DNA from: Clostridiales bacterium
Lineage (GTDB): Bacteria; Bacillota; Clostridia; Saccharofermentanales; Saccharofermentanaceae
DNA: 64,000 nt
Reading direction: 5' to 3'
Assembly: GCA_017451265.1 (NCBI GenBank)
Contig: JAFSPU010000012.1
Location: forward strand, 1-64,000
The position numbers and the translations under genes were made by a program. Positions 3,610 through 48,969 of this stretch are shown here, one piece after another. The notes beneath the pieces were generated by a model. It was not told the origin of the DNA and did no database searches. It was given only the letters and a program-made list of their open reading frames with translations. Every line of letters starts with the position of its first letter. Positions within the stretch are counted from its first letter, which is position 1.

Positions 3610-6143
3610 AGAAAGTCTTGATTATCATCATCAATGCGATTCTCATAGCCTCGATATTGGGGTTTGTTGTCCTCTACACGGGATTTACAAACAGGGAAGC
3701 GTACATGAGGCAGATTGAACACTTCGAGAGTACTACTGTCACCATGGAGCAGGTTACCCAGAATTACCTGGAAGGTGAGCAGGGGATCTGTGACGTCTGG
3801 GCCCGCTATATCAATAATCAGAACATGACTATGGAGGAAGCGGCTGAATATATACGTTCCTCTCATGTTCTCGCGAATACTTCGGCTCATCTGGTCTTCC
3901 TTGATACGCTCACCGGCCTTTCGACGCGCCCGAGGCAGGGAGCGGCTGATGACTATGAGGTCTCATATGAACGCGTAAGGATAATGGACAGCCTGAACCT
4001 AACGGACGCGACAGGAACTTCTATAAGGATCTCACGTGCCTACACTAATCCCATGAACGGCGAGCAGTCTCTGGCTTTCTGCAATGCCATTACGCTGTAC
4101 GATGAGAACGGAACTCCCCGTGATGCGGTTCTTCTAAGAATAATCCCAATCTCGGAGCTTGAGAAGAAATGGATCTTCCCGCAGTCGGAACTCGTGAATG
4201 CCGAGCTTGCCATGATAGACGCGGACGGCAACTATATTATCAAGGACCCCAACTTTAAGAATTCTAACTTCTTTGAATTCTATACATCCTATAATTCATC
4301 GGACCTCGAATCGACTAATCAGCTGTTCGACAGGATTACAACTTCGACAGGTTCAGTCTCGATGCTTAACTCACACGAGCAGGAATGTATCCTTGCCTTT
4401 GCTCCCGTAGATGCCACCTCGGGCTGGACTTTGATAAGCCTCGTTCCGGCAAGCGATCTTAAAGTGGATCAGAATGACTGGCCGCTGTTCAGCGTCGTCT
4501 CTGTGGGCCTTTTGATCCTGTTCCTGTGCGATTTGTTCTACGTGCTGGCACTTAACAAGAGGCTTCAGATCACGGCAAGGGAAGCAGAGCAAGCCAACAA
4601 GGCGAAAACAGACTTCCTCTCAACTATGTCACACGACATCCGCACGCCTATGAACGCGATCATAGGACTTACTGCCATCGCCGAGAAGAATCTCAGAGAC
4701 CGTGAGTCCACGGAAGAGAGCCTGAGGAAGATAAGCCTCGCCGGCAATCATCTTCTGACTCTGATCAACGATATTCTGGATATCTCCAAGGTGGAGAGCG
4801 GTAAGCTTAAGCTCAGTCCGCTGACTTTTTCTATCGTGGAGACTGTCGAGAATCTCGTAAATATCTCGCAGCCGATGATAAAGGAGAAGAATCTGGAATT
4901 CAGTTTCCATATCAACCGTATGGAGAAAGAATATCTGTATGCAGATCAGCTCCGCCTGAATCAGATATATATCAATATTCTCTCTAATGCCATCAAGTAT
5001 ACTGAACCCGGCGGGCGCATAAGTGTTGATATGACCGAAGAAGACAGTCCTGAATCAGGCTGTGTTCGTCTGGTCTATGTTGTGGCAGATACGGGTATCG
5101 GCATGAGTCCTGAATTCATAGAGACTATGTATCAGCCTTTCTCACGCCAGGTAGACAGCCGTGTCAACAGCATAAGAGGGACCGGACTCGGTCTTGCCAT
5201 TACCAAGCAGATGGTGGACCTTATGGGCGGTACTATCGAATGTCAAAGCGAGATGGGCAAGGGAACAACATTTACGGTTGTCCTGGATATCCCGGCAGCC
5301 GAGAGGCAGCGTGAGGAGATGAGACTTGATCCCATTGACGTGCTTATCGTTGATGACGATGAGGTTATGCTCGAGACAGCTGTCGATACGCTTGAGTCTC
5401 TGGGGGCTTCCACCGAACAGAGCAGAAGCGGTCTGGAAGCACTCGGTATGATAGAGCACAGGCATCAGGCGGGCAGGGATTACGACGTTATCATCGTCGA
5501 CTGGAAGATGCCTGATATTGACGGTATCGAGACTATCAGCCGAATCCGTTCGGAGGTAGATGCCAAGATCCCGATTCTTCTTATATCAGCTTATGACTGG
5601 TCGGATATCGAGGAGAAGGCAAAGGAAGCAGGCGTGAACGGATTCGTCAGCAAACCTCTGTTCCGCTCCAAGCTCTACGATAAGATCAACAACCTGATTG
5701 GCAAAGAACCGACCTCGATCGAGCCTGAAGAGGATTATTCGGACCTTCAGGGAATGAAGGTGCTTGTGGCAGAAGACAATGACATCAACTGGGAGATCGT
5801 CTCCGCTATGCTTAATATGTTCGGCATCACCTCAGAGCGTGCGGAGAACGGACAGGTCTGTGTTGATATGATCAGCTCGGCCGGAGCAGACGCCTACGAG
5901 ATGATCTTAATGGATGTACAGATGCCTCATATGAACGGACTTGATGCGACCAGGGCGATCCGCGCACTGCCCGATCCCCGTGTCTCTTCTATCCCGATCA
6001 TCGCCGTGACTGCGGATGCTTTCTCCGAGAATGTCACTGAGTGTCTGAACGCAGGTATGAACGGACATATATCAAAACCTATCGATATCAAATTAGTAAT
6101 TAAAGAGATCCGCAGGATCCGGGAAGAGAGGAAACAATCATGA
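3606..6143 (+). CDS. Hybrid sensor histidine kinase with two receiver domains
   Basis: An 845-residue membrane kinase. TM1 (residues 5-25) and TM2 (about 295-320) flank an extracytoplasmic sensor of about 265 residues, resembling a Cache-type fold. HisKA follows with the H-box STMSHDIRTPMNAI near 343, then HATPase with an N-box (NILSNAIKYTEPGG) and G-boxes (DTGIGM, GTGLGLAIT). Receiver 1 (VLIVDDDE, phospho-Asp in IIVDWKMPDIDG) and receiver 2 (VLVAEDND, phospho-Asp in ILMDVQMPHMNG) close the chain. No DNA-binding output is present, so phosphate probably passes to an unlinked Hpt protein or regulator. The next gene, a solute-binding lipoprotein, overlaps its stop by 4 nt and likely supplies the ligand signal. 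Confidence 0.9.
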   Translation: MKKVLIIIINAILIASILGFVVLYTGFTNREAYMRQIEHFESTTVTMEQVTQNYLEGEQGICDVWARYINNQNMTMEEAAEYIRSSHVLANTSAHLVFLDTLTGLSTRPRQGAADDYEVSYERVRIMDSLNLTDATGTSIRISRAYTNPMNGEQSLAFCNAITLYDENGTPRDAVLLRIIPISELEKKWIFPQSELVNAELAMIDADGNYIIKDPNFKNSNFFEFYTSYNSSDLESTNQLFDRITTSTGSVSMLNSHEQECILAFAPVDATSGWTLISLVPASDLKVDQNDWPLFSVVSVGLLILFLCDLFYVLALNKRLQITAREAEQANKAKTDFLSTMSHDIRTPMNAIIGLTAIAEKNLRDRESTEESLRKISLAGNHLLTLINDILDISKVESGKLKLSPLTFSIVETVENLVNISQPMIKEKNLEFSFHINRMEKEYLYADQLRLNQIYINILSNAIKYTEPGGRISVDMTEEDSPESGCVRLVYVVADTGIGMSPEFIETMYQPFSRQVDSRVNSIRGTGLGLAITKQMVDLMGGTIECQSEMGKGTTFTVVLDIPAAERQREEMRLDPIDVLIVDDDEVMLETAVDTLESLGASTEQSRSGLEALGMIEHRHQAGRDYDVIIVDWKMPDIDGIETISRIRSEVDAKIPILLISAYDWSDIEEKAKEAGVNGFVSKPLFRSKLYDKINNLIGKEPTSIEPEEDYSDLQGMKVLVAEDNDINWEIVSAMLNMFGITSERAENGQVCVDMISSAGADAYEMILMDVQMPHMNGLDATRAIRALPDPRVSSIPIIAVTADAFSENVTECLNAGMNGHISKPIDIKLVIKEIRRIREERKQS

Positions 6144-7435
6144 AGAAGATGACAAGTATTTTTTTATCGGCGCTGATGGTCTTGGAACTTGTCGCGTGCA
6201 GTACTGCGGTACAGGAAGAACCGGCTGCCAAAGTCTTCACGCCGTCTCTTGATGCTTCGATAAGCTGCCAGATCAATGTTGCCGGCGGTTATGATAACTT
6301 CGAGGCGCTGGAGGCCGAATTTGATCATTTCAATGATTTCTATCCCAATGTGGAACTTACTTACACGAAGATAGATGACTATAACAACATGATCGGCACG
6401 GTCCTTAACGGCAATGATGCTCCCGACATCTATGTAAATTATTCATGGATGTACGGCAGGGATCAGTACAGCTCTTCCATAGAGCACGCCGAGGATTTGT
6501 CAGACCCCGCTCTTGGGCTTGATCTGGAATGCATCCGCCCCAATATCATCTTGAATACTGCTGACGGTTCGCTTCCTATGGTGCCGGTGTTCTCGAACAC
6601 TTACGGGATGCTCGTAAATACTGACCTTTTTGAGAGAGAAGGGCTTACGGTACCTACTACTTACACTGAACTGGTGGAGGTGTGTGATGCACTGCGCGCG
6701 AAGGGTTACGACAGCCCGATAATGGGCTTCTCAAATGAAGAGACGACGTCGCTTTTCACACTGTCGGCTTACCCGTATTTCTGCGAAACTGTAGCAGGTG
6801 ATGCGCAGGCTGTGGCGGACTTCAACTCCCTTGATCCTTCTGCAGGTGAGTATATGCGCCCTGCACTTGAGAAGATAGAGCAGTTTGTTAACGACTGCGG
6901 TGTGGACCTTCAGGTCTGCGGTGAGATCGAGAATAACTATGATGCCGTTATCATGAGATTCTTCGAAGGCGATGTTCCCATGATGACTGCTTCGGGAGAT
7001 ACGGTCTCGGGTACAAGGAAGCGTGAGAGCCGCTCGGAGGCGTTTATAGCTAATCCCTTCGCTTATACTTTTGTTCCGATCCCCATGTCTGATGACGGCG
7101 CCACATTCCTTGATATGCCGAATCTTCAGTTCTCCGTCAATAAAGACAGTGAGAACCTCGAGATGGCTAACGAGTTTATGAGGTTCCTGATCACTTCCGC
7201 GGAACTTAACAACATGGCTCAGGAGAAGGGCCTTATGTCACCGACGCGTGATCTGTCCTTCAACAGCATGTACGCGGCATTCGGCAATATCCCTGAATCG
7301 CGTATCCTGTCTCCGGAAGAGATAGGCCTTACGGATGATGCCGTAATCCAGTTAAGACTGGCCGTTTACGGAGTAGGAACAGGAACGATGACGATAGACG
7401 AAGCTGTAGCAGGCTTCGGCACTTACGGGCAGTAG
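6140..7435 (+). CDS. Extracellular solute-binding lipoprotein paired with the kinase
   Basis: A 431-residue family-1-like (sugar/oligosaccharide type) ABC solute-binding protein. It has a signal peptide and lipobox LVAC with lipidated Cys near residue 20. The N-terminal lobe (INVAGGYDNFEALEAEF) and a typical hinge/C-lobe (DAPDIYVNYSWMYG) are readable. It overlaps the upstream hybrid kinase by ATGA, so translation is coupled. No permease or ATPase is encoded nearby, which suggests a sensory co-receptor for the kinase rather than a transporter part. The ligand is unknown; family membership suggests a carbohydrate. Confidence 0.85.
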   Translation: MKKMTSIFLSALMVLELVACSTAVQEEPAAKVFTPSLDASISCQINVAGGYDNFEALEAEFDHFNDFYPNVELTYTKIDDYNNMIGTVLNGNDAPDIYVNYSWMYGRDQYSSSIEHAEDLSDPALGLDLECIRPNIILNTADGSLPMVPVFSNTYGMLVNTDLFEREGLTVPTTYTELVEVCDALRAKGYDSPIMGFSNEETTSLFTLSAYPYFCETVAGDAQAVADFNSLDPSAGEYMRPALEKIEQFVNDCGVDLQVCGEIENNYDAVIMRFFEGDVPMMTASGDTVSGTRKRESRSEAFIANPFAYTFVPIPMSDDGATFLDMPNLQFSVNKDSENLEMANEFMRFLITSAELNNMAQEKGLMSPTRDLSFNSMYAAFGNIPESRILSPEEIGLTDDAVIQLRLAVYGVGTGTMTIDEAVAGFGTYGQ

Positions 7436-33641: not shown

Positions 33642-34562
33642 ATGGGTAAGGTTATCGCTGTATGTATAAGTGAGAAGAAAGGTACAGTTAAGACGGATGT
33701 TGGAAGCTGCCGAATCATTCGTGATCACGGACTTGAAGGTGATGCACATGCAGGGTCGGAAAGACAGGTTAGTCTTCTGTCTTATGAAGCTTTCGAAGAG
33801 TTCAGAAAGCTGAATGAAGGACGCGTGGATATCGTTCCGGGTGTGTTCGGTGAGAACCTGCTGGTTGAAGGAATTGATTTTAAGTCTTTGCCTCTGGGTA
33901 CGCGCTTTAAGTGCGGTGATTGTGTTCTCGAGCTGATGCAGATCGGAAAGAAGTGCCATACCGGATGTGAGATATCGAAGATCGCCGGTAAGTGCATAAT
34001 GCCTGTTGAAGGTGTGTTCGCACGCGTTATTGAAGAGGGTGTGGTGAGTGCCGGTGATGAGATGGTTATTGTTCCGGCGCCGTTCCGGGCCGGTGTGATT
34101 ACGGCGAGTGACCGTTCGTATAATGGTGAACGTGAGGATCTGTCTGGTCCGAAGATCATGGAGATCCTCAAAGAGAACGGATATGATGTCGTCACTTCCG
34201 CATTATTGCCGGATGATGAGTTGGTTCTGACTGATGCGCTGATCAAGATGTGCGATGTGGTAAAACCGGATATTATATTTACCACCGGCGGAACCGGTAT
34301 GTCACCCAGAGATCATATGCCCGAAGCGACTATGAGAGTTTCAAATCGTGACGTTCCCGGTATTGCAGAATATATGAGGATGAAGAGTATGGAGATCACT
34401 CCGAACGCCATGTTGTCACGTGGAGTGTCTGTGATACGTAATAATACTCTGATTATTAACCTCCCCGGCTCTCCGAAGGCCGTAAGTGAATGTCTGTCGT
34501 TCATTTTACCGACCCTCAATCACGGTCTCGGCCTCCTCCGCGGCGCCAAACTGGATAAATAG
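33642..34562 (+). CDS. MOSC domain-MogA fusion
   Basis: 306 residues. Residues 1-145 are a MOSC domain, the molybdenum-cofactor sulfurase C-terminal type (GLEGDAHAGSERQVSLL, PGVFGENLLVEG, GKKCHTGCEI with a conserved Cys). Residues 150-306 are MogA/MoaB, the molybdopterin adenylyltransferase (GVITASDRSYNGEREDLSGP, TTGGTGMSPRDHMPEAT, NLPGSPKAVSECLSFILP). The fusion could hand adenylated cofactor to a sulfur-transfer step. It is the last gene of the cluster; no clear terminator follows, only the repeat-rich segment. Confidence 0.88.
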   Translation: MGKVIAVCISEKKGTVKTDVGSCRIIRDHGLEGDAHAGSERQVSLLSYEAFEEFRKLNEGRVDIVPGVFGENLLVEGIDFKSLPLGTRFKCGDCVLELMQIGKKCHTGCEISKIAGKCIMPVEGVFARVIEEGVVSAGDEMVIVPAPFRAGVITASDRSYNGEREDLSGPKIMEILKENGYDVVTSALLPDDELVLTDALIKMCDVVKPDIIFTTGGTGMSPRDHMPEATMRVSNRDVPGIAEYMRMKSMEITPNAMLSRGVSVIRNNTLIINLPGSPKAVSECLSFILPTLNHGLGLLRGAKLDK

Positions 34563-37303: not shown

Positions 37304-37471
37304 TTACTTGATCATCTTCTTGATGCCGTCTACGTCAGGAAGGTCAACCTTTACTTTCTTCTCTACTTCGTTGATAGCCTGGTTGGCAACCTTCTTGGCG
37401 TTCTCGTCCTTGGAGAGCTTCTCCACTGCATCCTGTGCGATGTCTTTTGCCTTGTTAAGATCTATATCCAT
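37304..37471 (-). CDS. 55-residue charged helical protein
   Basis: A small gene reading ATG 37471 to TAA 37304 with a perfect CGGAGG 6-7 nt upstream. The product starts MDIDLNKAKDIAQDAVEKLS and is rich in Lys, Asp and Val, without hydrophobic membrane segments or cysteines. Its pattern (repeated helical K-x-x-D, then VDLPDVDGIKKMIK) is reminiscent of small helical antitoxin-like or stress proteins, but I do not recognise a family. It ends just before the shared terminator and lies downstream of the helicase genes on the same strand. Confidence 0.7.
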   Translation of the reverse strand: MDIDLNKAKDIAQDAVEKLSKDENAKKVANQAINEVEKKVKVDLPDVDGIKKMIK

Positions 37472-37507: not shown

Positions 37508-38044
37508 TCACTTGATCATGTGATCGCCTTCAGTGAGCTCCCCGAGGCCGACCGCGTACTCGATGGCATTCTCGCACATGAGCTTCACCTTGGGCGTGCT
37601 CGTTTTAAATCCGAGAGCTTTTCCTGTCTCGCTTACAAGGGCGTCACGCGGCATACCGAACTGTGTGCGCGCAAGCCAGATTGCAGCGCAGGCAGCTTCT
37701 TCCACCGGCACCTGATCCGCCTCTCTGTCCCCGTCACAGCGGAATGTCTCCGCTATCCTCCAGGGGGCGCGTGTGTCTTTCCAGATGAACCCCCTGTCGC
37801 AGTCCGGCGCCTTGTTCAGCGTGATGTTCTGGATGGTGACGGGGTACTTAAGAAGCTTGAGAAGATAGTCAATGCGCTCCTTCACGGGCGGCGTCTTGCG
37901 CTTGATCCCGCACGCCTCGCAAAGCCTGTCAGTCAGCACCTCAACGCACACGGGAGCCTCAGCCTCCACGATGGCCTTCACGGCCTGCTTAAGCACATCG
38001 ATATTGATGGGGTCAACGAACTGCGCCGCAGTAAGCACGGGCAA
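37508..38044 (-). CDS. DUF3320 C-terminal module of the split helicase
   Basis: 178 residues corresponding to the DUF3320 domain that normally ends DUF4011/SF1-helicase proteins (VEAEAPVCVEVLTDRLCEACGI, then a winged-helix-like end). As a separate gene it would have to start at TTG 38044 with no ribosome binding site. Extending upstream in the same frame gives continuous, sensible protein (QDNPAVPYKKAQITLPVL) as far back as the A9 run that ends the helicase frame, so this is the missing tail of that protein. Confidence 0.75.
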   Translation of the reverse strand: MPVLTAAQFVDPINIDVLKQAVKAIVEAEAPVCVEVLTDRLCEACGIKRKTPPVKERIDYLLKLLKYPVTIQNITLNKAPDCDRGFIWKDTRAPWRIAETFRCDGDREADQVPVEEAACAAIWLARTQFGMPRDALVSETGKALGFKTSTPKVKLMCENAIEYAVGLGELTEGDHMIK

Positions 38045-38072
38045 CGTAATCTGCGCTTTTTTGTAAGGGACG

Positions 38073-38107
38073 GCAGGGTTATCCTGCAGAATTATCCGTT
38101 TTTTTTT
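38073..38107 (-). other. A9 slippery run with downstream hairpin, candidate frameshift or slippage site
   Basis: On the minus strand the helicase frame reads GCA AAA AAA AAC GGA TAA (A run at 38107-38099). The A-AAA-AAA heptamer is a classic bacterial -1 slip site, and runs of nine A also allow RNA polymerase slippage. Eleven bases further on, GCAGG-ATAAC-CCTGC can form a 5-bp hairpin (38087-38073). A -1 shift fuses the helicase to DUF3320. A plain frameshift mutation or a homopolymer error would look the same. Confidence 0.5.
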
Positions 38108-41100
38108 GCGTCACCGGCGGGCTGCTCGGGAACTTCGGGTGCTGTGTTGTCATCGGCCGGGGCCTTTTGCAAAGCCGCTTCAGCAGGCTCGGGCTCTTCT
38201 GCTTGCAAACCCTCCCCCTCGCGGATCTTATCGAGTATCGCCTTCATCACGGCATCCTTATCTTCCCACCAGTCTATGGACCAGATCTTGATCACATTCC
38301 AGCCCAGGCCCTTAAGTATCGAGGGCTGGGACACCTCGCGTGCGGTGGCAGTCGTGTGGCTGCCGGATGCGGAACCGTCTATCAAAATACCGAGGCAGTA
38401 GCTGTCGGAGCCCTTCTGCCTTACTCCGATATCTACCTTGAAGCCGGACTTGCCGACTGACTTGCACGTCTCGAAGCCCTCTTGCGCAAGGCGGACACAC
38501 ATGCTGTCGATGATGCCCGTGGAAGTCTTGTGAGCGGTCTCGGCAGACGCTGCAGCCTCCTTTAAGTCCTCGCACCAAAGCGAGTTGCCCTCGGCGTACA
38601 TGAGGAAGCGGCGGAAAGCCTTAACGCCCTCGGGGGTCGCCTCAGAGACTTTGATCTGCTCGGGCTCGAGGGAAGAGAAGACCTTCATCTCGCACCTGGA
38701 TCTCGTGACGGCAACGTTAAGTCTGCGCCAGCCGCCGTCCCTGTTAAGCGGGCCGAAATTCATCGACACTTTGCCTTCGGGATCGGGACCGTAGCTTACC
38801 GAGAACAGGATCACATCGCGCTCGTCACCCTGAACGTTCTCGAGGTTCTTAATGAAGATAGGCTCCTCGCTTCCGAAGGCCCATTTCTCGAAGTCCGCGT
38901 CAGTCCTGCAGACCTCGTCGATCATGTCCTCGATCAGGTTCTGCTGCTGGATATTAAACGTCACGATACCGTGCGTGAGCTTGGAGTTAACTGCGTCCTT
39001 GGAGCGCGCGACAAGCTCATCTACCACGGCACGTGCCTCGACCTCATTCGTGCGTGTCTTGCCGCTGTCGAAGGTGCCCTGGCACTTAACAAGGTTTACG
39101 CGGGACGTGATGTCATCGACTGACGGGAAAGTATATAGCTTGCTGTCGTAGAAAGCGCGGTTAGAGAATGTGATGAGGCTCTCATGGCGGCTTCTGTAGT
39201 GCCACAGCAGGCGGCTCTCGGGCATGCCGACCGCGAGACAGTCATCTAGGATGCTCTCCAGGTCTTCGACATCGTAATTCTCGTCATCGAAGGTCTGCTC
39301 CTTGAAGAAGGAGGTAGGCGGCATCTGGTTCGGGTCGCCTACTACGACGGCATCCTTACCGCGTGCGAGGACGCCGACAGCCTTACATGTAGGCAGCTGG
39401 CTCGCCTCATCGAAGATAACCAGGTCAAACATCGGCTCAGAAGAAGGCTCAATAAACTGCGCGGCTGACATCGGGCTCATGAGCACACAGGGAGTGAGCT
39501 CGAGCACCACCTCGGAGACCTCTCTCATGAGGCTCCTTATGGATATGCCGCGGCCGTGGCTCTTGATGGCGCGCTGAAGCTTGCCTAAAGCCGAGTCTTT
39601 ATTTGCAGTCTCGATGTTCGGCAGCATGGAGCGCTGCGCAAGCTTAAGGCAGATCTCCTGCCTGGTGACACTTTCAAATTCGTCGCTGAGGCTCTTAAGC
39701 TTTTTAACCTTGTCGTCAAAGATGCTGCCGCTAAATGTCCTTAAGATCTCGGCCTCATCGATCGTCCTGCAGATAAGAAGCTTGCTCCAGGCTTTCATGA
39801 AGGCGGGGAGGAGCGTGTCTTCGTTGACAACACCCTTGCCGAAAGCCTCGATCAGCGCGTTAAGCTTAAGCGCACCGCACTTGGCGGAGGCGCCGTTAAG
39901 TATGATCTTAGGCCTGATGGAGCTCTCGTTGGCGGTTATGTCGTCTATTATGCTTCTGACTGAGTTGAAGTCAGCCGAAGTCGTACCGGGCTCCAGGATC
40001 TTTATGCCCAGCCTGTTTACGACGGCTGAGCGCGCCGCATCGAACTCCTGATGAGCCTGCTTAAACTCGCCGAGCACAGCAGGAACGACGGCAGCCGGGT
40101 CAAAGCCCATGGCCGAGAACTCGTTCTTATATGTAAGCAATGCATCCAGGTGTTTTCCGAGTTCGGGCTCGGCATTTCCGGATTTATCGTAAGATTTAAC
40201 AATGTTATAAACCTTCTTCAAAGCCCCGCCGCGCAAGGGTCCCCACTTGTTGGCAGCGGCCTCGTAAGAAGCCTTAAGGGAAGAAGCGTCCTGCGCCAGG
40301 AATTCCAGGCTCCAGGTCTTAAGTATCTGTGTGCGTGCCCCGAGGAAGCGGTCGATCTTGGCAGCCGTGCGGTCCGCAGAAGCGAGGTCAGCGCCGCCCT
40401 CCAGCGAAGGGAAAGAAGCCTTCACGGCATTAAAAGCGCCCTCATATTTGTCTGCGGCGGCCTTAAAAGCGGCAAGCTCCGCGCCGAGCTTTATCTTGGT
40501 GTCCTGGCTGTATTCGGTGGCCTTGATATAAGGCAGCTTCCCTGCAAGACCTCTTCCCGCGGCAAGGTACTCGCTTAAAGCCGTAACGGAAGCGTTTATG
40601 CGCTCTTCCGTAAGCCCTTCCTCGAAGCCGTTCTCCAGGAGGACATCAGGCGCGCTCTCGTTTTCCGCGTAGATGTTAAGCATCTCGTAAAGCGTGTAGC
40701 CGCAGGGTCTTACCGCGGACAGCTCGCCTGCATAGGCATTAAGCTCCCCGCGCCTGGTGCGGATGTCTGCCTGTGCCTTCTCGTAATCCGGGTCAGTTAC
40801 CGTGTTATGGCGCACCTCGTAGGCTTCCTTGAGCTGGTCGAGGACGTAACCCTTGCGCACCTTGTTGGAGTGCAGCTCGAGGCAGAACGGAGCCAGGCCG
40901 ATCCTGCTTAAGCGCGCGTAAACCACATCGAGAGCGGCCTTCTTCTCCGCCGCAAAGAGCACTTTCTGCCCGTTTGCGACAGCGTTGGCAATGATGGACG
41001 TGATCGTCTGTGACTTACCGGTTCCCGGAGGGCCGTGCAGCACAAAGCTCGAGCTTACCGCGTTGCCGTCCCCGTCCTTGTGCGAGGCCTTGTAGATAGC

Positions 41101-42045
41101 ATAAAGCTGGGAGGAGTCAGCGGAGATAGGAAGGTAGACCTTTGACTCGTCGCTGAAGCCTTTCCCTTCACGCTCCATGTCCTCGTAGTCCCAGGTGAGG
41201 CGGCCTTCTATGAGGCTGTTTACGATCTTGTTGGAAGCGATCTGCTCACGGTAGTTATGCATGTCATGCCACATAACGAACTGCGAGAACTTGAACATGC
41301 CGAGCACGCACGCGTCGATTATCTCCCAGCCGGGCTTGCTTACGAGCGCGCCCTTCAAAGTGTCGAAGACGCCCTGCACATTGATGCCGTGCTCATCGGG
41401 AGGCACTTCCCCCTCAAGCTCGGGCACCAGGATATCGAAGTCCTGCTTGAGCTTCTCGAGGAGCGTGATGTTAACGACTGCATCGTCATCGATCTTGCGC
41501 ATGACGTAGCGGCCCACGCCGAACTTTCTCACGAGCTCCACCGGCACCAGAACTATAGGTGCGTAGCAGTCGGATTCCTTCTTATCGTCGGTCCACTTAA
41601 GGAAGCCGCACGCCAGGAAAAGTGTGCCCGCGCCGTCCTCATCGAGAGCGTTGCGGGATTCCCTGTAGAGCTTCTTAAGGCGGTCCTCGAGCTCCTGTGT
41701 GGGCAGGGCAGAGTAGATCTTTTTGTCTTCGCTGCCTTTTACGAGGACTTCGCTGAAGCTTTCTGTGTCCGCAAGGTCCGTGAGCTCATATTCCTTAGCG
41801 GGGATGGCGGGCTGCTTCTCGCCGCTTTCCGTCACCTTTTCACCCGCTTCCATGCGCGATATTACTGAGTATTCCTTGTCGTCCGAGATGTCGTCCTCGA
41901 TGCTGCAGGAGGATGTCACCAGGAGCGGCACCGTGCTGCCTTTCATCTTCACGTTAAGAAGTGCGTTGCGCGTGGTGAGGTCAAGAAGCTTGCGCTCCCA
42001 CAGATCGAACTTGTCCTTGCTTCTGGAAGATGTGTTCTCAGACAT
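38092..42045 (-). CDS. DUF4011 / SF1 helicase / Vsr-like nuclease protein (Hhe-like defence)
   Basis: 1317 residues. DUF4011 N-terminus (FDLWERKLLDLTTRNALLNV at 13-32), Walker A GPPGTGKS at 338-345, Walker B DLVIFDEASQLP, SF1 motifs GDPNQMPP, WHYRSRHESLI, NVQGDERDVILFSVSYG and NVAVTRSR, then a Vsr/MTES_1575-type endonuclease-like domain (KVDIGVRQKGSDSYCLGILI, SILKGLGWNVIKIWSIDWWE). The order matches the single-protein anti-phage family I recall as Hhe. In the zero frame it ends GDAKKNG after a run of nine A, losing DUF3320; one extra A or a -1 slip gives a 1512-residue protein. AAGGAGAA precedes ATG 42045. Confidence 0.85.
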   Translation of the reverse strand: MSENTSSRSKDKFDLWERKLLDLTTRNALLNVKMKGSTVPLLVTSSCSIEDDISDDKEYSVISRMEAGEKVTESGEKQPAIPAKEYELTDLADTESFSEVLVKGSEDKKIYSALPTQELEDRLKKLYRESRNALDEDGAGTLFLACGFLKWTDDKKESDCYAPIVLVPVELVRKFGVGRYVMRKIDDDAVVNITLLEKLKQDFDILVPELEGEVPPDEHGINVQGVFDTLKGALVSKPGWEIIDACVLGMFKFSQFVMWHDMHNYREQIASNKIVNSLIEGRLTWDYEDMEREGKGFSDESKVYLPISADSSQLYAIYKASHKDGDGNAVSSSFVLHGPPGTGKSQTITSIIANAVANGQKVLFAAEKKAALDVVYARLSRIGLAPFCLELHSNKVRKGYVLDQLKEAYEVRHNTVTDPDYEKAQADIRTRRGELNAYAGELSAVRPCGYTLYEMLNIYAENESAPDVLLENGFEEGLTEERINASVTALSEYLAAGRGLAGKLPYIKATEYSQDTKIKLGAELAAFKAAADKYEGAFNAVKASFPSLEGGADLASADRTAAKIDRFLGARTQILKTWSLEFLAQDASSLKASYEAAANKWGPLRGGALKKVYNIVKSYDKSGNAEPELGKHLDALLTYKNEFSAMGFDPAAVVPAVLGEFKQAHQEFDAARSAVVNRLGIKILEPGTTSADFNSVRSIIDDITANESSIRPKIILNGASAKCGALKLNALIEAFGKGVVNEDTLLPAFMKAWSKLLICRTIDEAEILRTFSGSIFDDKVKKLKSLSDEFESVTRQEICLKLAQRSMLPNIETANKDSALGKLQRAIKSHGRGISIRSLMREVSEVVLELTPCVLMSPMSAAQFIEPSSEPMFDLVIFDEASQLPTCKAVGVLARGKDAVVVGDPNQMPPTSFFKEQTFDDENYDVEDLESILDDCLAVGMPESRLLWHYRSRHESLITFSNRAFYDSKLYTFPSVDDITSRVNLVKCQGTFDSGKTRTNEVEARAVVDELVARSKDAVNSKLTHGIVTFNIQQQNLIEDMIDEVCRTDADFEKWAFGSEEPIFIKNLENVQGDERDVILFSVSYGPDPEGKVSMNFGPLNRDGGWRRLNVAVTRSRCEMKVFSSLEPEQIKVSEATPEGVKAFRRFLMYAEGNSLWCEDLKEAAASAETAHKTSTGIIDSMCVRLAQEGFETCKSVGKSGFKVDIGVRQKGSDSYCLGILIDGSASGSHTTATAREVSQPSILKGLGWNVIKIWSIDWWEDKDAVMKAILDKIREGEGLQAEEPEPAEAALQKAPADDNTAPEVPEQPAGDAKKNG

Positions 42046-43197: not shown

Positions 43198-45558
43198 TCA
43201 GCCGAGTCCGCATAAGATGCAGATCATTCTTGCGATGAACGCCATCACCCATGCCAGAGTGCACTGGAAGATGACGACTGACAGTGCCCACTTGCGGCCC
43301 ATCTCGCGGCGGATGGCTGCGACTGCTGCCACGCAGGGCGTGTAGATCAGTGAGAACACGAGCATCGATACCGCAGCGGTAGTGCCGAGGGATACCAGGC
43401 TGTCACCGAACATGGATGTCATTACTGCGACGACGCTTTCCTTGGCCATGAAGCCGGAGATGAGTGACGTGATGATGCGCCAGTCTCCGAGGCCTATCGG
43501 CGCCATGACGGGCTCGAGTATTCCCGCGATGCTTGCGAGCATGCTGTCGTGAGGGCTCTGTGTCAGGTTAAGACCGAAGTCGAAGTGTGACAGGAACCAG
43601 ACCACGATGGTCGCGATCAGGATTACCGAGAACGCGCGCTGGATGAAGTCCTTGCTCTTCTCCCACATGAGCTGCGTGACATTGCGCGCGCCGGGGAGAC
43701 GGTAGTTCGGAAGCTCCATTACGAAAGGCACGGCTTCACCCTTGAAGATGGTGTGCTTGAAGCCAGTGGCCGCGAGTATTCCCGTGAGTATGCCGAGCAG
43801 GTAGATCAGCGTGATAATAAGCCAGCTGTAGCCGGGGAAGAAAACGCTTACGAAGAAGCCGTAGATGGGAAGCTTTGCCGTACATGACATGAAGGGCGTG
43901 AGCAGGATCGTCATCTTACGGTCGCGCTCGGAAGGGAGTGTGCGCGAGCTCATTACGGCGGGAACCGTGCAGCCGAAGCCGATCAGCATGGGCACAATGC
44001 TCCTGCCGGAAAGGCCGATCTTTCTTAAAAGCTTATCCATTACGAAAGCCACACGCGCGATGTAACCGCTGTCTTCAAGCAGTGAAAGGAAGAAGAACAG
44101 CAGGATAACGATAGGGAGGAAGCTGACGACTGTGCCTACGCCCTCGAAGATACCGTCCAGCACGAGGCTTTGGATGGCCTCCGTGACGTTGGCGGCTTCC
44201 ATGCCTTTCTGCACTATGCTGCCGAGCAGCTCGATTCCCGAGGCGAGCAGGTCCTGGAAGAAAGGTCCTATCAGGAAGAATGTCAGGTAGAACACGAGGC
44301 CCATGATGAGAATGAACATGGGGATCGCGGTGAAGCGGCCTGTGAGGACCGTATCAATCTTGCGGCTTCTTATGTGCTCGCGGCTCTCGTGCGGCTTGAT
44401 GACGCACTCTTCGCACAGCTTCTTGATGAAGTCGAATCTCATCTCCGCCATGGCAGCGCTGTGGTCGAGGCCGCGCTCGTTCTCCATCTGGAGGATTATG
44501 TGCTCGAGCATCTCCTGCTCGTTCTTATCAAGCTTAAGCATCTCCACGAAAGACATGTCACCCTCAAGGAGCTTGGCTGCCGCAAATCTGAAAGGGATGC
44601 CCTCACGCTTGCCGTGGTCTTCTATGAGGTGGCTTACCGCGTGGAAAGCTCTGTGTACTGCGCCGCCGTGGTCTTCAGGGTCACAGTAGTCGTATCTGAC
44701 AGGCCTTTCCTGGTACTTGGCAATGTGCACTGCGTGGCGCACGAGTTCGTCTACACCTTCGTTCTTGGCAGCTGAGATCGGGACTACCGGCACGCCGAGC
44801 ATGGCCTCCATGGAGTTTACGTCGACGGTGCCGCCGTTGCCGCGCAGCTCGTCCATCATATTAAGAGCCACTACCATGGGCATGTTCAGCTCCAGAAGTT
44901 GCATCGTAAGGTAAAGGTTACGCTCGATGTTGGTGGCGTCCACGATGTTGATGATGGCCTTGGGCTTCTCGTTAAGTACGAAGTTTCTGGAGACCATCTC
45001 CTCGCTTGAGAACGGGGACATGGAGTAGATGCCGGGAAGGTCTGTGATGAGGGTGTTTTCTTGCCCCCTTATCTGGCCGTCCTTACGGTCGACCGTGACG
45101 CCCGGGAAGTTTCCGACATGCTGGTTGGAGCCTGTGAGCTGGTTAAACAGCGTTGTCTTGCCGCAGTTCTGGTTGCCTACGAGCGCGAAAGTAAGGAGCG
45201 TTCCCTCAGGAAGCGGATCTCCGTCCCCCTCACGGTGAAAACGGCCTTCCTCACCGAGACCAGGGTGTTCTGCCGTCTTGCGGTCGGACAGGGTCTTCTT
45301 GTTGACTGATGCCTTCTCGGGCTCCTTGCCGGGTTCGATCTGTTCTATACCGATCTGCTCGGCCTCCGCGAGCCTTAAGGTAAGCTCGTAGCCGTGTATG
45401 CGGAGCTCCATGGGGTCGCCCATAGGAGCGAACTTGATTACCGTTACTTCGGCACCGGGTATCATACCCATATCAAGGAAATGCTGTCGTAGTGCGCCCT
45501 CACCGCCGACTTCCGTAATGCGGGCGGACTGACCGGGTTTTAATGTATTAAGTTTCAT
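43198..45558 (-). CDS. feoB: FeoA-FeoB fusion, ferrous iron transporter
   Basis: 786 residues. A FeoA SH3-like domain (1-75, MIPGAEVTVIKFAPMGDP) is joined through a charged linker to FeoB: GTPase G1 GNQNCGKTT (128-136), G3 DLPGIYSMSPFSSEE, G4 NMMDEL region, then the GDI helices and a membrane domain with two Gate motifs and the FeoB core (FGCTVPAVMSSRTLPSERDR). It imports Fe2+ using GTP. The gene lies 2 nt after the DtxR/MntR-type repressor and is followed by the Cys-rich peptide, so regulator, transporter and peptide form one operon. Confidence 0.92.
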   Translation of the reverse strand: MKLNTLKPGQSARITEVGGEGALRQHFLDMGMIPGAEVTVIKFAPMGDPMELRIHGYELTLRLAEAEQIGIEQIEPGKEPEKASVNKKTLSDRKTAEHPGLGEEGRFHREGDGDPLPEGTLLTFALVGNQNCGKTTLFNQLTGSNQHVGNFPGVTVDRKDGQIRGQENTLITDLPGIYSMSPFSSEEMVSRNFVLNEKPKAIINIVDATNIERNLYLTMQLLELNMPMVVALNMMDELRGNGGTVDVNSMEAMLGVPVVPISAAKNEGVDELVRHAVHIAKYQERPVRYDYCDPEDHGGAVHRAFHAVSHLIEDHGKREGIPFRFAAAKLLEGDMSFVEMLKLDKNEQEMLEHIILQMENERGLDHSAAMAEMRFDFIKKLCEECVIKPHESREHIRSRKIDTVLTGRFTAIPMFILIMGLVFYLTFFLIGPFFQDLLASGIELLGSIVQKGMEAANVTEAIQSLVLDGIFEGVGTVVSFLPIVILLFFFLSLLEDSGYIARVAFVMDKLLRKIGLSGRSIVPMLIGFGCTVPAVMSSRTLPSERDRKMTILLTPFMSCTAKLPIYGFFVSVFFPGYSWLIITLIYLLGILTGILAATGFKHTIFKGEAVPFVMELPNYRLPGARNVTQLMWEKSKDFIQRAFSVILIATIVVWFLSHFDFGLNLTQSPHDSMLASIAGILEPVMAPIGLGDWRIITSLISGFMAKESVVAVMTSMFGDSLVSLGTTAAVSMLVFSLIYTPCVAAVAAIRREMGRKWALSVVIFQCTLAWVMAFIARMICILCGLG

Positions 45559-45560
45559 GA

Positions 45561-45926
45561 TTACTTCTTATGCTGCTCCTGATGCGCTTTGATCGCATTG
45601 AAGGTCTTGTCGCTTATGTAGTGCTCGATGCGGCAAGCGTCTTCGGAAGCTGTTTTCTCGTCGACCCCGATGCTGATGAGCATTTCGGTGAGAACTACAT
45701 GACGCTCGTAGATCTTCTTGGCCTTAGCTGCGCCCTTGCGCGTGAGCTTGAGAGAACCGTCTTCTCCGACCTTGACCATGTCTTCTTCCTTGAGGATGCC
45801 GAGTGCGCGGCTTACGGAGGGCTTGCTGAAGCCCATGTGGTTGCCGACGTCGATGGCGCGGACATTAGGGTTTTCCCGGGAAAGAACATATATAGTCTCG
45901 AGATACATCTCGCCTGATTCCTGCAT
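45561..45926 (-). CDS. DtxR/MntR-family metal-dependent repressor
   Basis: 121 residues. An N-terminal winged helix (YLETIYVLSRE, VGNHMGFSKPSVSRALGILK) is followed by a short metal-binding dimerisation part (RHVVLTEMLISIG, EDACRIEHYISD). Fe2+ or Mn2+ bound at the His/Glu/Asp ligands would trigger DNA binding. It lacks the C-terminal SH3-like domain of IdeR/DtxR, like the short MntR group. GAGGAG lies 7 nt before ATG 45926. Its context (feoAB fusion downstream, GTTAGC palindromes upstream) points to autoregulated iron control. Confidence 0.88.
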   Translation of the reverse strand: MQESGEMYLETIYVLSRENPNVRAIDVGNHMGFSKPSVSRALGILKEEDMVKVGEDGSLKLTRKGAAKAKKIYERHVVLTEMLISIGVDEKTASEDACRIEHYISDKTFNAIKAHQEQHKK

Positions 45927-45959
45927 AGTGACGCTCCTCTTATATTATTAATATACGCG

Positions 45960-46091
45960 GTTAGCTTATCACAACTGCCGGGAAACCGCCACCTGAAAAT
46001 CTCTATTGACAAGTTAGCGAACGGTAACTACAATGTGTGCGGTTAGCCTTGCCTAACTAATATATATAAGTACTGGTTAGCGGAAGCTAAC
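45960..46091. promoter_or_regulatory. Iron-repressor operators and divergent feo promoters
   Basis: A consensus promoter TTGACA (46006-46011), 17-bp spacer, TACAAT (46029-46034) drives the plus-strand feo operon. Operator 1, GTTAGCGAACGGTAAC (46013-46028), fills the spacer. Operator 2, GTTAGCCTTGCCTAAC (46042-46057), covers the start-site region, and operator 3, GTTAGCGGAAGCTAAC (46076-46091), a perfect 6-4-6 palindrome, lies in the leader. A weaker half-site (GTTAGC at 45960-45965) faces the repressor gene. This GTTAGC-N4-GCTAAC form fits DtxR-family sites. Confidence 0.85.
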
Positions 46092-46105
46092 GTATGGAGG
46101 AGACA

Positions 46106-46318
46106 ATGATGCCGCTTAATCTTGCAGATGTAGGTGAACCCCAAATCATAAAGAAACTGGGCGGAAGCCCTGAAGTGAAGAAGCATTTGGAGGACATGGG
46201 CTTTAACGTAGGCGGTGAAATAAGCGTTGTCAGCACTCTTAACGGCAACCTGATCGTTAAGGTCAAGGAGAGCCGTGTGGCGGTAAGTGAAGAGCTTGCC
46301 CGAAGGATCATGATCTAA
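46106..46318 (+). CDS. feoA: FeoA-domain protein (first copy)
   Basis: A 70-residue FeoA, an SH3-like accessory factor that binds FeoB and supports ferrous iron uptake (MMPLNLADVGEPQIIKKLGG, then ISVVSTLNGNLIVKVKESRVA). I prefer ATG 46106, 5 nt after GGAGGAG, over ATG 46094, which lies inside the ribosome binding region and next to operator 3. A second FeoA gene follows after 17 nt. Confidence 0.85.
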   Translation: MMPLNLADVGEPQIIKKLGGSPEVKKHLEDMGFNVGGEISVVSTLNGNLIVKVKESRVAVSEELARRIMI

Positions 46319-46335
46319 AAACAGGAGGGAAATAT

Positions 46336-46557
46336 ATGAAAACACTGAAGGACGTAAAGATCGGTCAGACGGTTACGGTGGTGAAGCTCCACGGTGAAGG
46401 TGCCGTTAAGCGCCGCATCATGGACATGGGTATCACCAAGGGCACATCGGTTTATGTGCGTAAGGTAGCTCCCCTGGGAGACCCGGTCGAAGTAACTGTT
46501 AGAAACTATGAGCTTTCGCTTCGTAAGGCTGATGCCGAGATGATCGAAGTGGAGTAA
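46336..46557 (+). CDS. feoA: FeoA-domain protein (second copy)
   Basis: A 73-residue FeoA with the classic pattern LKDVKIGQTVTVVKLHGEG, MDMGITKGTSVYVRKVAPLG, ELSLRKADAEMIEVE. Tandem feoA genes before feoB are common in Clostridia; the two differ strongly and probably act as a pair. AGGAGGG lies upstream; feoB starts 21 nt later. Confidence 0.9.
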   Translation: MKTLKDVKIGQTVTVVKLHGEGAVKRRIMDMGITKGTSVYVRKVAPLGDPVEVTVRNYELSLRKADAEMIEVE

Positions 46558-46578
46558 TGAAGGAAAGGAATCGGAGTA

Positions 46579-48969
46579 ATGAGTACAGTAATAGCCTTAG
46601 CAGGTAACCCGAACAGCGGTAAGACGACCCTGTTCAATTCGCTGACCGGATCCAACCAGTTCGTAGGTAACTGGCCCGGCGTAACGGTAGAGAAGAAGGA
46701 AGGTAAGCTTAAGAAGCACGATGATGTAACCATCACGGACCTTCCCGGTATCTACTCACTTTCCCCGTATACACTCGAGGAAGTAGTTGCGAGAAACTAC
46801 CTGATCAATGAGCGTCCTGATGCCATCCTTAACATCATCGACGGTACTAACCTCGAGCGTAACCTTTATCTGACAACACAGCTTACCGAGCTCGGTATCC
46901 CTGTAGTAGTCGCTGTAAACATGATGGATATCGTGGAGAAGAACGGCGACAAGATCAATACAGAAGAGCTTTCAAGACAGCTCGGCTGTAAGGTGGTTAA
47001 CATCTCCGCCCTGAAGGGTGACGGTGTCATCTCCGCTGCTGAGGCTGCTATCGAAGCGGCCAAGAACGGCAAGACAGTTCCGATGCATACATTCTCAGGC
47101 CCCGTTGAGCATGCGCTTGCACATATCGAGGAGGCTGCGGTTCACGGTCTTCCGGAGGAGAGACAGAGATGGTATGCGATCAAGATCTTCGAGAGAGACG
47201 ACAAGGTCTTAGAGCAGCTTAATATTGCTCCCGAGACGATGAAGCATATAGAGAGTGACATCGCTGCTGCCGAGAAGGAACTCGATGACGATGCAGAGAG
47301 CATTATCACAAATGAGCGTTATATCTATATCGCAGAAGTCATCAAGGCCTGCTACAAGAAGAAAAATGCAGGCGGACTTACAACATCCGATAAGATCGAT
47401 AAGATCGTAACTAACAGATGGCTCGGTCTTCCTATATTCGCAGTGATCATGTACCTTGTTTACTGGATTGCGATGGTTGGTGTCGGTGCTCCTGCCACAG
47501 ACTTTACCAACGACTGCATCTTCGGTGACGGATTCCACCTTTTCGGCATGGACGGCGGTTACGGTGAGATCGCAGAAGAATATGCGGGTGCATCCGCTAT
47601 CGTTGACGGTTACGACGCTTATGTCGAAGAGAACGGTGAGGCTCCCGCAGTTGAGTTTACTTACGAAGTAGAAGACGAGGAGACACTCGAGATTACAGAG
47701 GAGACAGCAACTATCGCAGAGTACGAAGACGCAGCTGCTTTCCTTGATGAGATCGGTGACGAGCCTGATCCTGCCGATTACGGCACATGGGTTCCCGGCA
47801 TCCCGGCTCTTGTAGAGAGCGGCCTTGATGCAGCTAATGCTTCTGACTGGCTCAAGGGTCTTATCCTTGACGGTATCGTAGCAGGTGTCGGCGCTGTTCT
47901 GGGCTTCGTTCCCCAGATGCTCGTACTCTTCCTGATGCTCGCTTTCCTCGAGGCTTGCGGTTACATGGCTCGTATCGCATTCGTACTTGACCGTATCTTC
48001 AGAAAGTTCGGTCTCTCCGGTAAGTCCTTCATTCCTATGCTCGTAGGCGTAGGCTGCGGCGTTCCCGGCATCATGGCGAGCCGTACGATAGAGAATGAGC
48101 GTGACAGAAGAATGACTATCATGACGACGACGTTCATTCCCTGCGGCGCTAAGCTTCCTTTCATCGGAATGGTCGTAGGTGCCATCTTCGGCGGTAACGC
48201 TTGGATCTCTGCTTCCGCTTACTTCATCGGTATGGCTGCCATCATCATCTCCGGTATCATGCTCAAGAAGACAAAGATGTTCTCAGGTCAGCCTGCTCCT
48301 TTCGTAATGGAGCTCCCGGCTTACCACATGCCTACACTCGGCAATGTTCTGAGATCCATGTGGGAGCGCGGCTGGTCCTTCATCAAGAAGGCAGGAACTA
48401 TCATCCTTCTTTCCACTATCGTTGTATGGTTCACAAGCTTCTTCGGCTTCACTGACGAGGGCTTCCGTATGCTCTCTGAGGACGAGCTCGATCTTTCCTT
48501 GCTTGCTACAATCGGTAACGCCATCGCATGGATCTTCATCCCTCTTGGCTGGGGTAACTGGCAGGCAACTGTCGCTTCCATCACAGGCCTCGTAGCTAAG
48601 GAAAATATCGTAGGTACTATGGGTATCCTCTACGGCGGCGGAGAGCTTACAGCGTGGCAGACACTTGCTCAGAACTTCAACGGCGTAACAGGTATGTCCT
48701 TCCTCGTATTCAACCTCTTGTGCGCACCCTGCTTCGCAGCTATCGGTGCTATCAAGCGTGAGATGAATAACGCTAAGTGGACATGGTTCGCCATCGCATA
48801 TCAGTGTGGTTTCGCTTATGTGATCTCACTCATGATCAACCAGTTCGGCGGTCTGTTTACAGGTAACGTAAATGTTATCGGTCTTATCTTCGCAGTGGCA
48901 GCACTCGGATTTATCATCTACATGCTGTTTATCAAGAAGTATAAGGAAGCAGACAAACTTAAGGTATAA
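46579..48969 (+). CDS. feoB: Ferrous iron transporter FeoB with acidic loop
   Basis: 796 residues. G1 GNPNSGKTTLFN at 9-20, G3 DLPGIYSLSPYTLEE, G4 NMMDIVEKNG, then GDI and a membrane domain (GCGVPGIMASRTIENERDRR, AKENIVGTMGILYGGGE). Between the first two membrane helices it has an insertion of roughly 110 residues, rich in Glu and Asp (FTYEVEDEETLEITEETATI), predicted outside the cell. The minus-strand FeoB lacks it. The acidic loop could hold Fe2+ near the entrance. No FeoA domain is fused; two feoA genes precede it. Confidence 0.92.
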   Translation: MSTVIALAGNPNSGKTTLFNSLTGSNQFVGNWPGVTVEKKEGKLKKHDDVTITDLPGIYSLSPYTLEEVVARNYLINERPDAILNIIDGTNLERNLYLTTQLTELGIPVVVAVNMMDIVEKNGDKINTEELSRQLGCKVVNISALKGDGVISAAEAAIEAAKNGKTVPMHTFSGPVEHALAHIEEAAVHGLPEERQRWYAIKIFERDDKVLEQLNIAPETMKHIESDIAAAEKELDDDAESIITNERYIYIAEVIKACYKKKNAGGLTTSDKIDKIVTNRWLGLPIFAVIMYLVYWIAMVGVGAPATDFTNDCIFGDGFHLFGMDGGYGEIAEEYAGASAIVDGYDAYVEENGEAPAVEFTYEVEDEETLEITEETATIAEYEDAAAFLDEIGDEPDPADYGTWVPGIPALVESGLDAANASDWLKGLILDGIVAGVGAVLGFVPQMLVLFLMLAFLEACGYMARIAFVLDRIFRKFGLSGKSFIPMLVGVGCGVPGIMASRTIENERDRRMTIMTTTFIPCGAKLPFIGMVVGAIFGGNAWISASAYFIGMAAIIISGIMLKKTKMFSGQPAPFVMELPAYHMPTLGNVLRSMWERGWSFIKKAGTIILLSTIVVWFTSFFGFTDEGFRMLSEDELDLSLLATIGNAIAWIFIPLGWGNWQATVASITGLVAKENIVGTMGILYGGGELTAWQTLAQNFNGVTGMSFLVFNLLCAPCFAAIGAIKREMNNAKWTWFAIAYQCGFAYVISLMINQFGGLFTGNVNVIGLIFAVAALGFIIYMLFIKKYKEADKLKV

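Follow-up and report, generated by a model that had tools for sequence, protein, structure and literature searches.

A conserved run of nine adenines at a frame junction suggests programmed slippage in a bacterial helicase-nuclease gene

Introduction

A large gene, whose product combines a helicase with a nuclease, carries nine consecutive A residues (A9) just before its C-terminal module. In the window analysed here (64,000 nts of contig JAFSPU010000012.1 from a Clostridiales bacterium), this module continues past the run in another reading frame. Across the genus, the run, nearby stops in the frames that do not lead into the tail and an open tail frame are conserved, and the tail is under selection. 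The gene probably undergoes programmed slippage, mainly by RNA polymerase as in Thermus dnaX, which would yield a short and a long form of the helicase-nuclease. That slippage occurs, its level and ratio and the roles of both forms are what we infer from comparison of the genes.

Results

Organization of the locus

All features of the gene lie on the reverse strand. The head frame (38092..42045; ORF, Pfam, PADLOC and NCBIfam), which by itself would give the short product of 1317 aa, comprises a DUF4011 domain (PF13195, 41449..41991), an SF1 helicase region extending from AAA_11 to AAA_12 (Pfam, 38674..41118), a MTES_1575/Vsr-like nuclease domain (REase_MTES_1575, PF18741, 38224..38499) and an acidic linker. 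HGPPGTGKS and DEAS, which we take to be the helicase motifs, are invariant across 14 aligned relatives. As the original prediction had it, the 1317-residue protein ends just after nine A residues: the run occupies 38099..38107 and the frame-0 stop, TAA at 38092..38094, is located 4 nts past it. The prediction that a DUF3320 tail continues in the next frame without a stop also proved correct. This tail, carrying DUF3320 and a second domain (37508..38104; ORF, Pfam and predicted structure), is open in the -1 frame from within the run down to its stop at 37508–37510. The third frame, +1, is closed by a TAA 17 nts past the run (38079..38081). A 55-aa ORF lies beyond the tail (37304..37471, reverse strand); by eye, its ATG is situated 36 nts past the tail stop and is preceded by GGAGG.

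The window's genome (1.96 Mb, 15 contigs, 69.5% complete) contains A9 three times. By our own reading of the sequence the two non-junction copies are outside genes, one between open frames and the other about 30 nts upstream of a start codon with GGAGG. The placement of A9 at the junction thus appears to be more than chance.

The run is conserved in the genus and in several frames

The tail was used as query against 85 genomes of the genus, and 69 gave a match. The junction was read in all 69, in 68 of them through fetched stretches and in one (G007) separately. Exactly nine A were found in 57, seven in three and ten in one, the remaining eight having no run. The tail is in frame 0 in 36 of the 57 A9 genes and in the -1 frame in 21, window included. 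All three A7 genes carry it in the -1 frame together with a strong hairpin, and the single A10 gene (L047, from genome G065) in the +1 frame; the closest relatives of the latter, G024 and G070, are A9 genes with tails in frames 0 and -1. The eight run-less genes, one clade of seven plus that of G007, are all in one frame. In G034 a stop in the head leaves only 269 open codons ahead of the run, so this copy may be broken or misassembled.

An unbroken frame without an A run in close relatives had been named beforehand as evidence against the original prediction. Such genes do exist, in the seven-genome clade and in G007 only, and the 36 unbroken-frame A9 relatives all keep the run. That eight genomes do without it nevertheless counts against our main reading.

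The run is observed in all three codon phases. AAA accounts for 20% of the Lys codons of these genes, and an AAA in one aligned row was opposite another AAA in 26% of 1639 comparisons; the run is thus kept as DNA and not for its lysines. Upstream of it, the 191,694 nts of head coding sequence from the 61 run-bearing genes (window included, some genes partial) contain no A run of nine or more, one of eight and two of seven. In a whole-genome scan of 83 genomes, at least one A9 was present in 81. Three genomes (G059, G026 and G076) have a single A9 genome-wide, as many as stand at the junction, and two without a run at the junction (G057 and G036) have none at all. Outside the genus, the run was absent from the fetched stretches of 5/5 order relatives and 20/20 class relatives, and from 68 of the 69 named loci examined.

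Both non-tail frames are closed shortly after the run

All 36 frame-0 A9 genes have a -1 stop 1–4 nts and a +1 stop 9–18 nts past the run. Similarly, among the 21 A9 genes with a -1 tail the frame-0 stop lies within 27 nts in 20 and at 63 nts in the other, and the +1 stop within 17 nts in all. Expected values were obtained by shuffling synonymous codons of the tail frame. Both non-tail frames were stopped within 18 nts in 36/36 frame-0 genes versus 6.7 expected, and within 27 nts in 20/21 -1 genes versus 3.9 expected; with limits of 12, 18, 21, 27 and 30 nts the counts were 34, 36, 36, 36 and 36 of 36 frame-0 genes (6.3–8.9 expected) and 7, 11, 18, 20 and 20 of 21 -1 genes (1.0–4.0 expected), all these figures being contrasts and not probabilities, since relatives are not independent samples and the excess is overstated. 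In 30 of the 36 frame-0 genes, the codon overlapped by the +1 stop is ATA, GTA or TTA. Where the overlapped codon is Leu it is TTA in 8/8, a codon that otherwise makes up 5% of Leu usage. In the three A7 genes the frame-0 stop is found at 36 nts and the +1 stop at 43, 43 and 73 nts, i.e. not close.

A guarded +1 frame is in keeping with a polymerase that slips by varying amounts, and not with -1 ribosomal slippage alone. Taken together, the stops in both frames, the length of nine and the A10 gene point to the polymerase as the level at which slippage would take place.

Downstream structure, upstream motif and the ribosomal alternative

Every run of seven or more contains the slippery heptamer A_AAA_AAA, so that -1 slippage of the ribosome is possible in every run-bearing gene, A9 genes included. 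We then considered whether ribosomal -1 frameshifting alone, in the manner of E. coli dnaX, explains the locus: the slip would give the short form in frame-0 genes and the long form in -1 genes, and one -1 event would supply a second product in 60 of the 61 run-bearing genes. We regard this as unlikely, with evidence on both sides.

The A7 genes speak for it. In 3/3 an 8-bp hairpin begins 5 nts past the run (MFE about -17 kcal/mol for 45 nts) and a GAGG is located 10–13 nts upstream, and this clade seems to use ribosomal -1 frameshifting. The 57 A9 genes have no common downstream structure (median z -0.3, z below -2 in 9), which speaks against a ribosomal mechanism on its own. In the window, a GCAGG/CCTGC hairpin is indeed present 11 nts past the run, as predicted (38073..38087), but folding is weak: the 45-nt stretch has an MFE of -9.1 kcal/mol and a z of -1.5. 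Its core occurs within 60 nts past the run in 6/61 genes, namely the window, its closest relatives G032 and G025, and the three A7 genes. This recurrence in the A7 clade favours the ribosomal alternative; the role of the weak window hairpin is doubtful, though in view of the recurrence it may have a small stimulating effect.

A Shine-Dalgarno-like GAGG/GGAG within 18 nts upstream of the run was found in 17/21 -1 A9 genes, 3/3 A7 genes, 2/36 frame-0 genes and 0/1 A10 gene, against a background of 20–28% in blocks further upstream. The motif is thus more frequent than background in -1 genes and less frequent in frame-0 genes, as ribosomal frameshifting would have it, a contrast that is not significant over 6 independent pairs (median p 0.125). 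Every GAGG/GGAG lies within 4 nts of the run in 7 of the 17 motif-bearing -1 A9 genes, and the window has none within 18 nts. In view of this upstream motif, some of the product in the -1 class may come from ribosomal slippage as well. Acting alone, it leaves unexplained why +1-frame stops are kept, why the length is nine when seven would suffice and why the A10 gene has its tail in +1.

Frame changes, selection on the tail and the case against a broken gene

Two trees of the head were built, a quick one with 68 fragments and a careful one with 65 (G033, G034 and G066 being dropped as short or odd). The seven run-less genes form one clade on the trees. On both, the encoded frame of the tail changed at least 7 times with A9 retained, and the codon phase of the run changed at least 9 times (quick tree) or at least 8 times (careful tree). 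Two A9 genes, those of G055 and G050, group with the three A7 genes and yet lack the A7-type hairpin.

We examined selection in 13 pairs of genes with an off-frame tail. Tail dN/dS ranged from 0.04 to 0.15 in 10/13, dS being saturated in 3/13, and head dN/dS from 0.015 to 0.13 in the same pairs. By these ratios the off-frame tail is constrained in its own frame by purifying selection, and evolves somewhat faster than the head.

These results bear on an explanation to which we give very little weight, namely that the run varies by replication slippage (phase variation) or that, in the window, the gene is simply broken or misassembled. Poly-A tracts are named as phase switches elsewhere (PMC3711429, PMC9187656), and A10 in one genome (L047) and the head stop of G034, 269 codons before the run, would be in keeping with it. 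However, the length is nine in 57/61 runs and A9 accompanies a tail in frame 0 or in -1 alike, so run length does not set the state; we rejected phase variation on this constancy. Purifying selection on the off-frame tail and an identical run in 57 separate genomes also speak against this explanation. The original prediction had also offered recent mutation as an alternative; this too was discarded, as the run and the open tail frame are conserved across the genus and the tail is under purifying selection.

Start codons after the run

Synthesis of two separate proteins, the tail being restarted by reinitiation past the head stop, is highly improbable and was rejected as the main route: an in-frame ATG does occur within 75 nts past the run in 19/25 off-frame genes, but only one of these 19 (G050) has a Shine-Dalgarno-like motif before it, no ATG, GTG or TTG turned up in the part of the tail frame searched in two split relatives (G025 and G062), the same Met lies within the protein in at least 15/36 frame-0 genes by a rough motif, and in an alignment, where no start is needed, and reinitiation explains neither A9 nor its presence in frame-0 genes. 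In the window, the first start codon of the tail frame is a TTG 54 nts past the run, and no ribosome binding site was found there, in agreement with the original prediction. A GTG 147 nts past the run has a GGAGG, but sits within the DUF3320 match.

A slippage model

With programmed slippage as the favoured reading, RNA polymerase would slip on A9 and produce transcripts with varying numbers of A, the frame past the run being scrambled. One frame would lead into the DUF3320 tail and give the long form, in which a flexible acidic linker would carry two winged-helix-like domains; in the other two, translation would end a few codons on, leaving the short helicase-nuclease. Since slippage would feed all frames, the frame encoded in the DNA would matter little. 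This frame has changed between 0, -1 and +1, and both the run and the two stops have persisted. In the A7 clade, ribosomal -1 frameshifting would do the same job, with the hairpin 5 nts downstream and the upstream GAGG. That slippage yields a short and a full-length form was already part of the original prediction, and is strongly supported by the conserved run and the open tail frame across the genus.

A further step, for which we put the chances at about even, is that the gene is 'frame-agnostic': stuttering on A9 would make the genomic frame of the C-terminal module nearly neutral, free to drift among all three frames, with selection keeping the run and the stops in the two non-tail frames.

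Predicted products and family membership

The structure model of the tail (mean pLDDT 94.9) suggests two winged-helix domains in tandem, the first at 37769..38023, containing the DUF3320 match (37880–38023), and the second at 37511..37726. For a natural one-frame relative the C-terminal 420 residues were modelled as well (mean pLDDT 76.3, pTM 0.49), and the linker between nuclease and tail came out with low confidence. As modelled, the long form would consist of the helicase-nuclease plus two apparent winged-helix domains, a domain type that often binds nucleic acid or partners. In the long form, a helicase-nuclease with anti-phage relatives would probably gain the ability to bind DNA or a partner.

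The best NCBIfam match is ProA (NF058533, 'anti-phage protein ProA'), with 1272.2 bits for the head and 57 bits for the tail. The tail aligns to the C-terminal end of the ProA model, but the scores stay below the curated equivalog cut-off of 1500 for this model of 1903 positions: the head reaches 1272.2 and the natural one-frame relative L037 1332.9. In PADLOC the best match is the candidate PDC-S37 (head 924 bits, tail 52 bits; profile of 1550 positions, cut-off not given). The original prediction had recognized the layout of an Hhe defence protein. Matches to Hhe (NCBIfam NF042953 and PADLOC Hhe) do span the helicase and nuclease region, but the NF042953 score of 693.4 bits lies far below the curated cut-off of 2000 and both ProA and PDC-S37 score higher; membership of Hhe was thus rejected. 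A defence role of the gene is suggested by its relatives only.

Neighbourhood of the gene

We compared the loci of 22 relatives, about 20 kb each. A YgjP-like metallopeptidase is encoded near the gene in 16/22 loci, and in none of the six loci of the window's subgroup. Within that subgroup, L211 and L212 share the window's HAD-like and FeoB-like neighbours (named by eye). The gene looks more like a resident chromosomal gene than part of a mobile defence island, the window's subgroup being outside the YgjP set; it has probably long resided in the chromosome and moved in this subgroup. Likewise, part of PMC10250203 describes a large DUF4011 gene of Pseudomonas aeruginosa as core and flanking a defence hotspot.

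Other observations were made at these loci. In L223, a 194-aa protein without Pfam match (5994–6572, reverse strand) is encoded about 30 nts downstream of the helicase and is a possible partner; its cluster has members in 10/22 loci. In the window, translations read by eye show a FeoA-FeoB fusion, a small metalloregulator-like gene and a divergent second FeoB-like gene with a long acidic insertion, adjacent to one another (43198–48969). Also by eye, MOSC-like and MogA-like parts are seemingly fused in a 306-aa protein (33642–34562) beside a moaA-like gene.

Discussion

According to parts of PMC1088944 and PMC5009743, dnaX, insertion elements and type III secretion genes are the main cases in which programmed slippage has been described in bacteria. 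Among the matches listed from the open-licence PMC literature, no paper linked slippage or programmed frameshifting to a defence helicase. If slippage is confirmed here, an apparent frameshifted pseudogene would turn out to be functional and to encode two products, both of them forms of a helicase-nuclease from a defence-related family. If the frame-agnostic reading holds, this would be the first programmed recoding in an anti-phage-type helicase-nuclease, with isoforms differing by a tandem winged-helix module. Since the genus offers 61 natural variants of this one site, which include frame switches and what appears to be a change of mechanism, whether recoding is transcriptional or ribosomal can be tested directly.

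A close parallel is Thermus thermophilus dnaX. In the accounts given in parts of PMC1088944 and PMC5009743, its nine A lead to transcripts in every frame, both frames other than the full-length one soon reach a stop, and the short form makes up about 50% of the product. The likeness (PMC1088944, PMC5009743) extends to an A9 late in the gene, full length in one frame, nearby stops in the others and two products, the latter presumed in our case. Similarly, part of PMC5574713 reports for E. coli that transcript insertions at A/T runs, most of them of a single base, rise exponentially with length up to 9. There are differences from Thermus dnaX: the product there is a clamp loader and here a helicase-nuclease, the encoded frame here switches among 0, -1 and +1 within one genus, and one clade changes to A7 plus a hairpin. 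As for dnaX of this genus itself, no A run of seven or more was found in 13/13 fetched stretches.

In E. coli dnaX, ribosomal -1 frameshifting operates and the slip makes the short form. The A7 clade resembles it in its A7 slip site, the purine-rich motif before this site and the hairpin 5 nts after it, but in this gene it is the long form that would depend on the slip. Finally, part of PMC3711429 describes a two-ORF dnaX with 10 A in Chlorobi, another gene with a poly-A run that some species encode off-frame and others in a single frame. In that case, however, the contrast is between phyla, whereas the helicase-nuclease gene switches frame inside a single genus and keeps a run length of nine.
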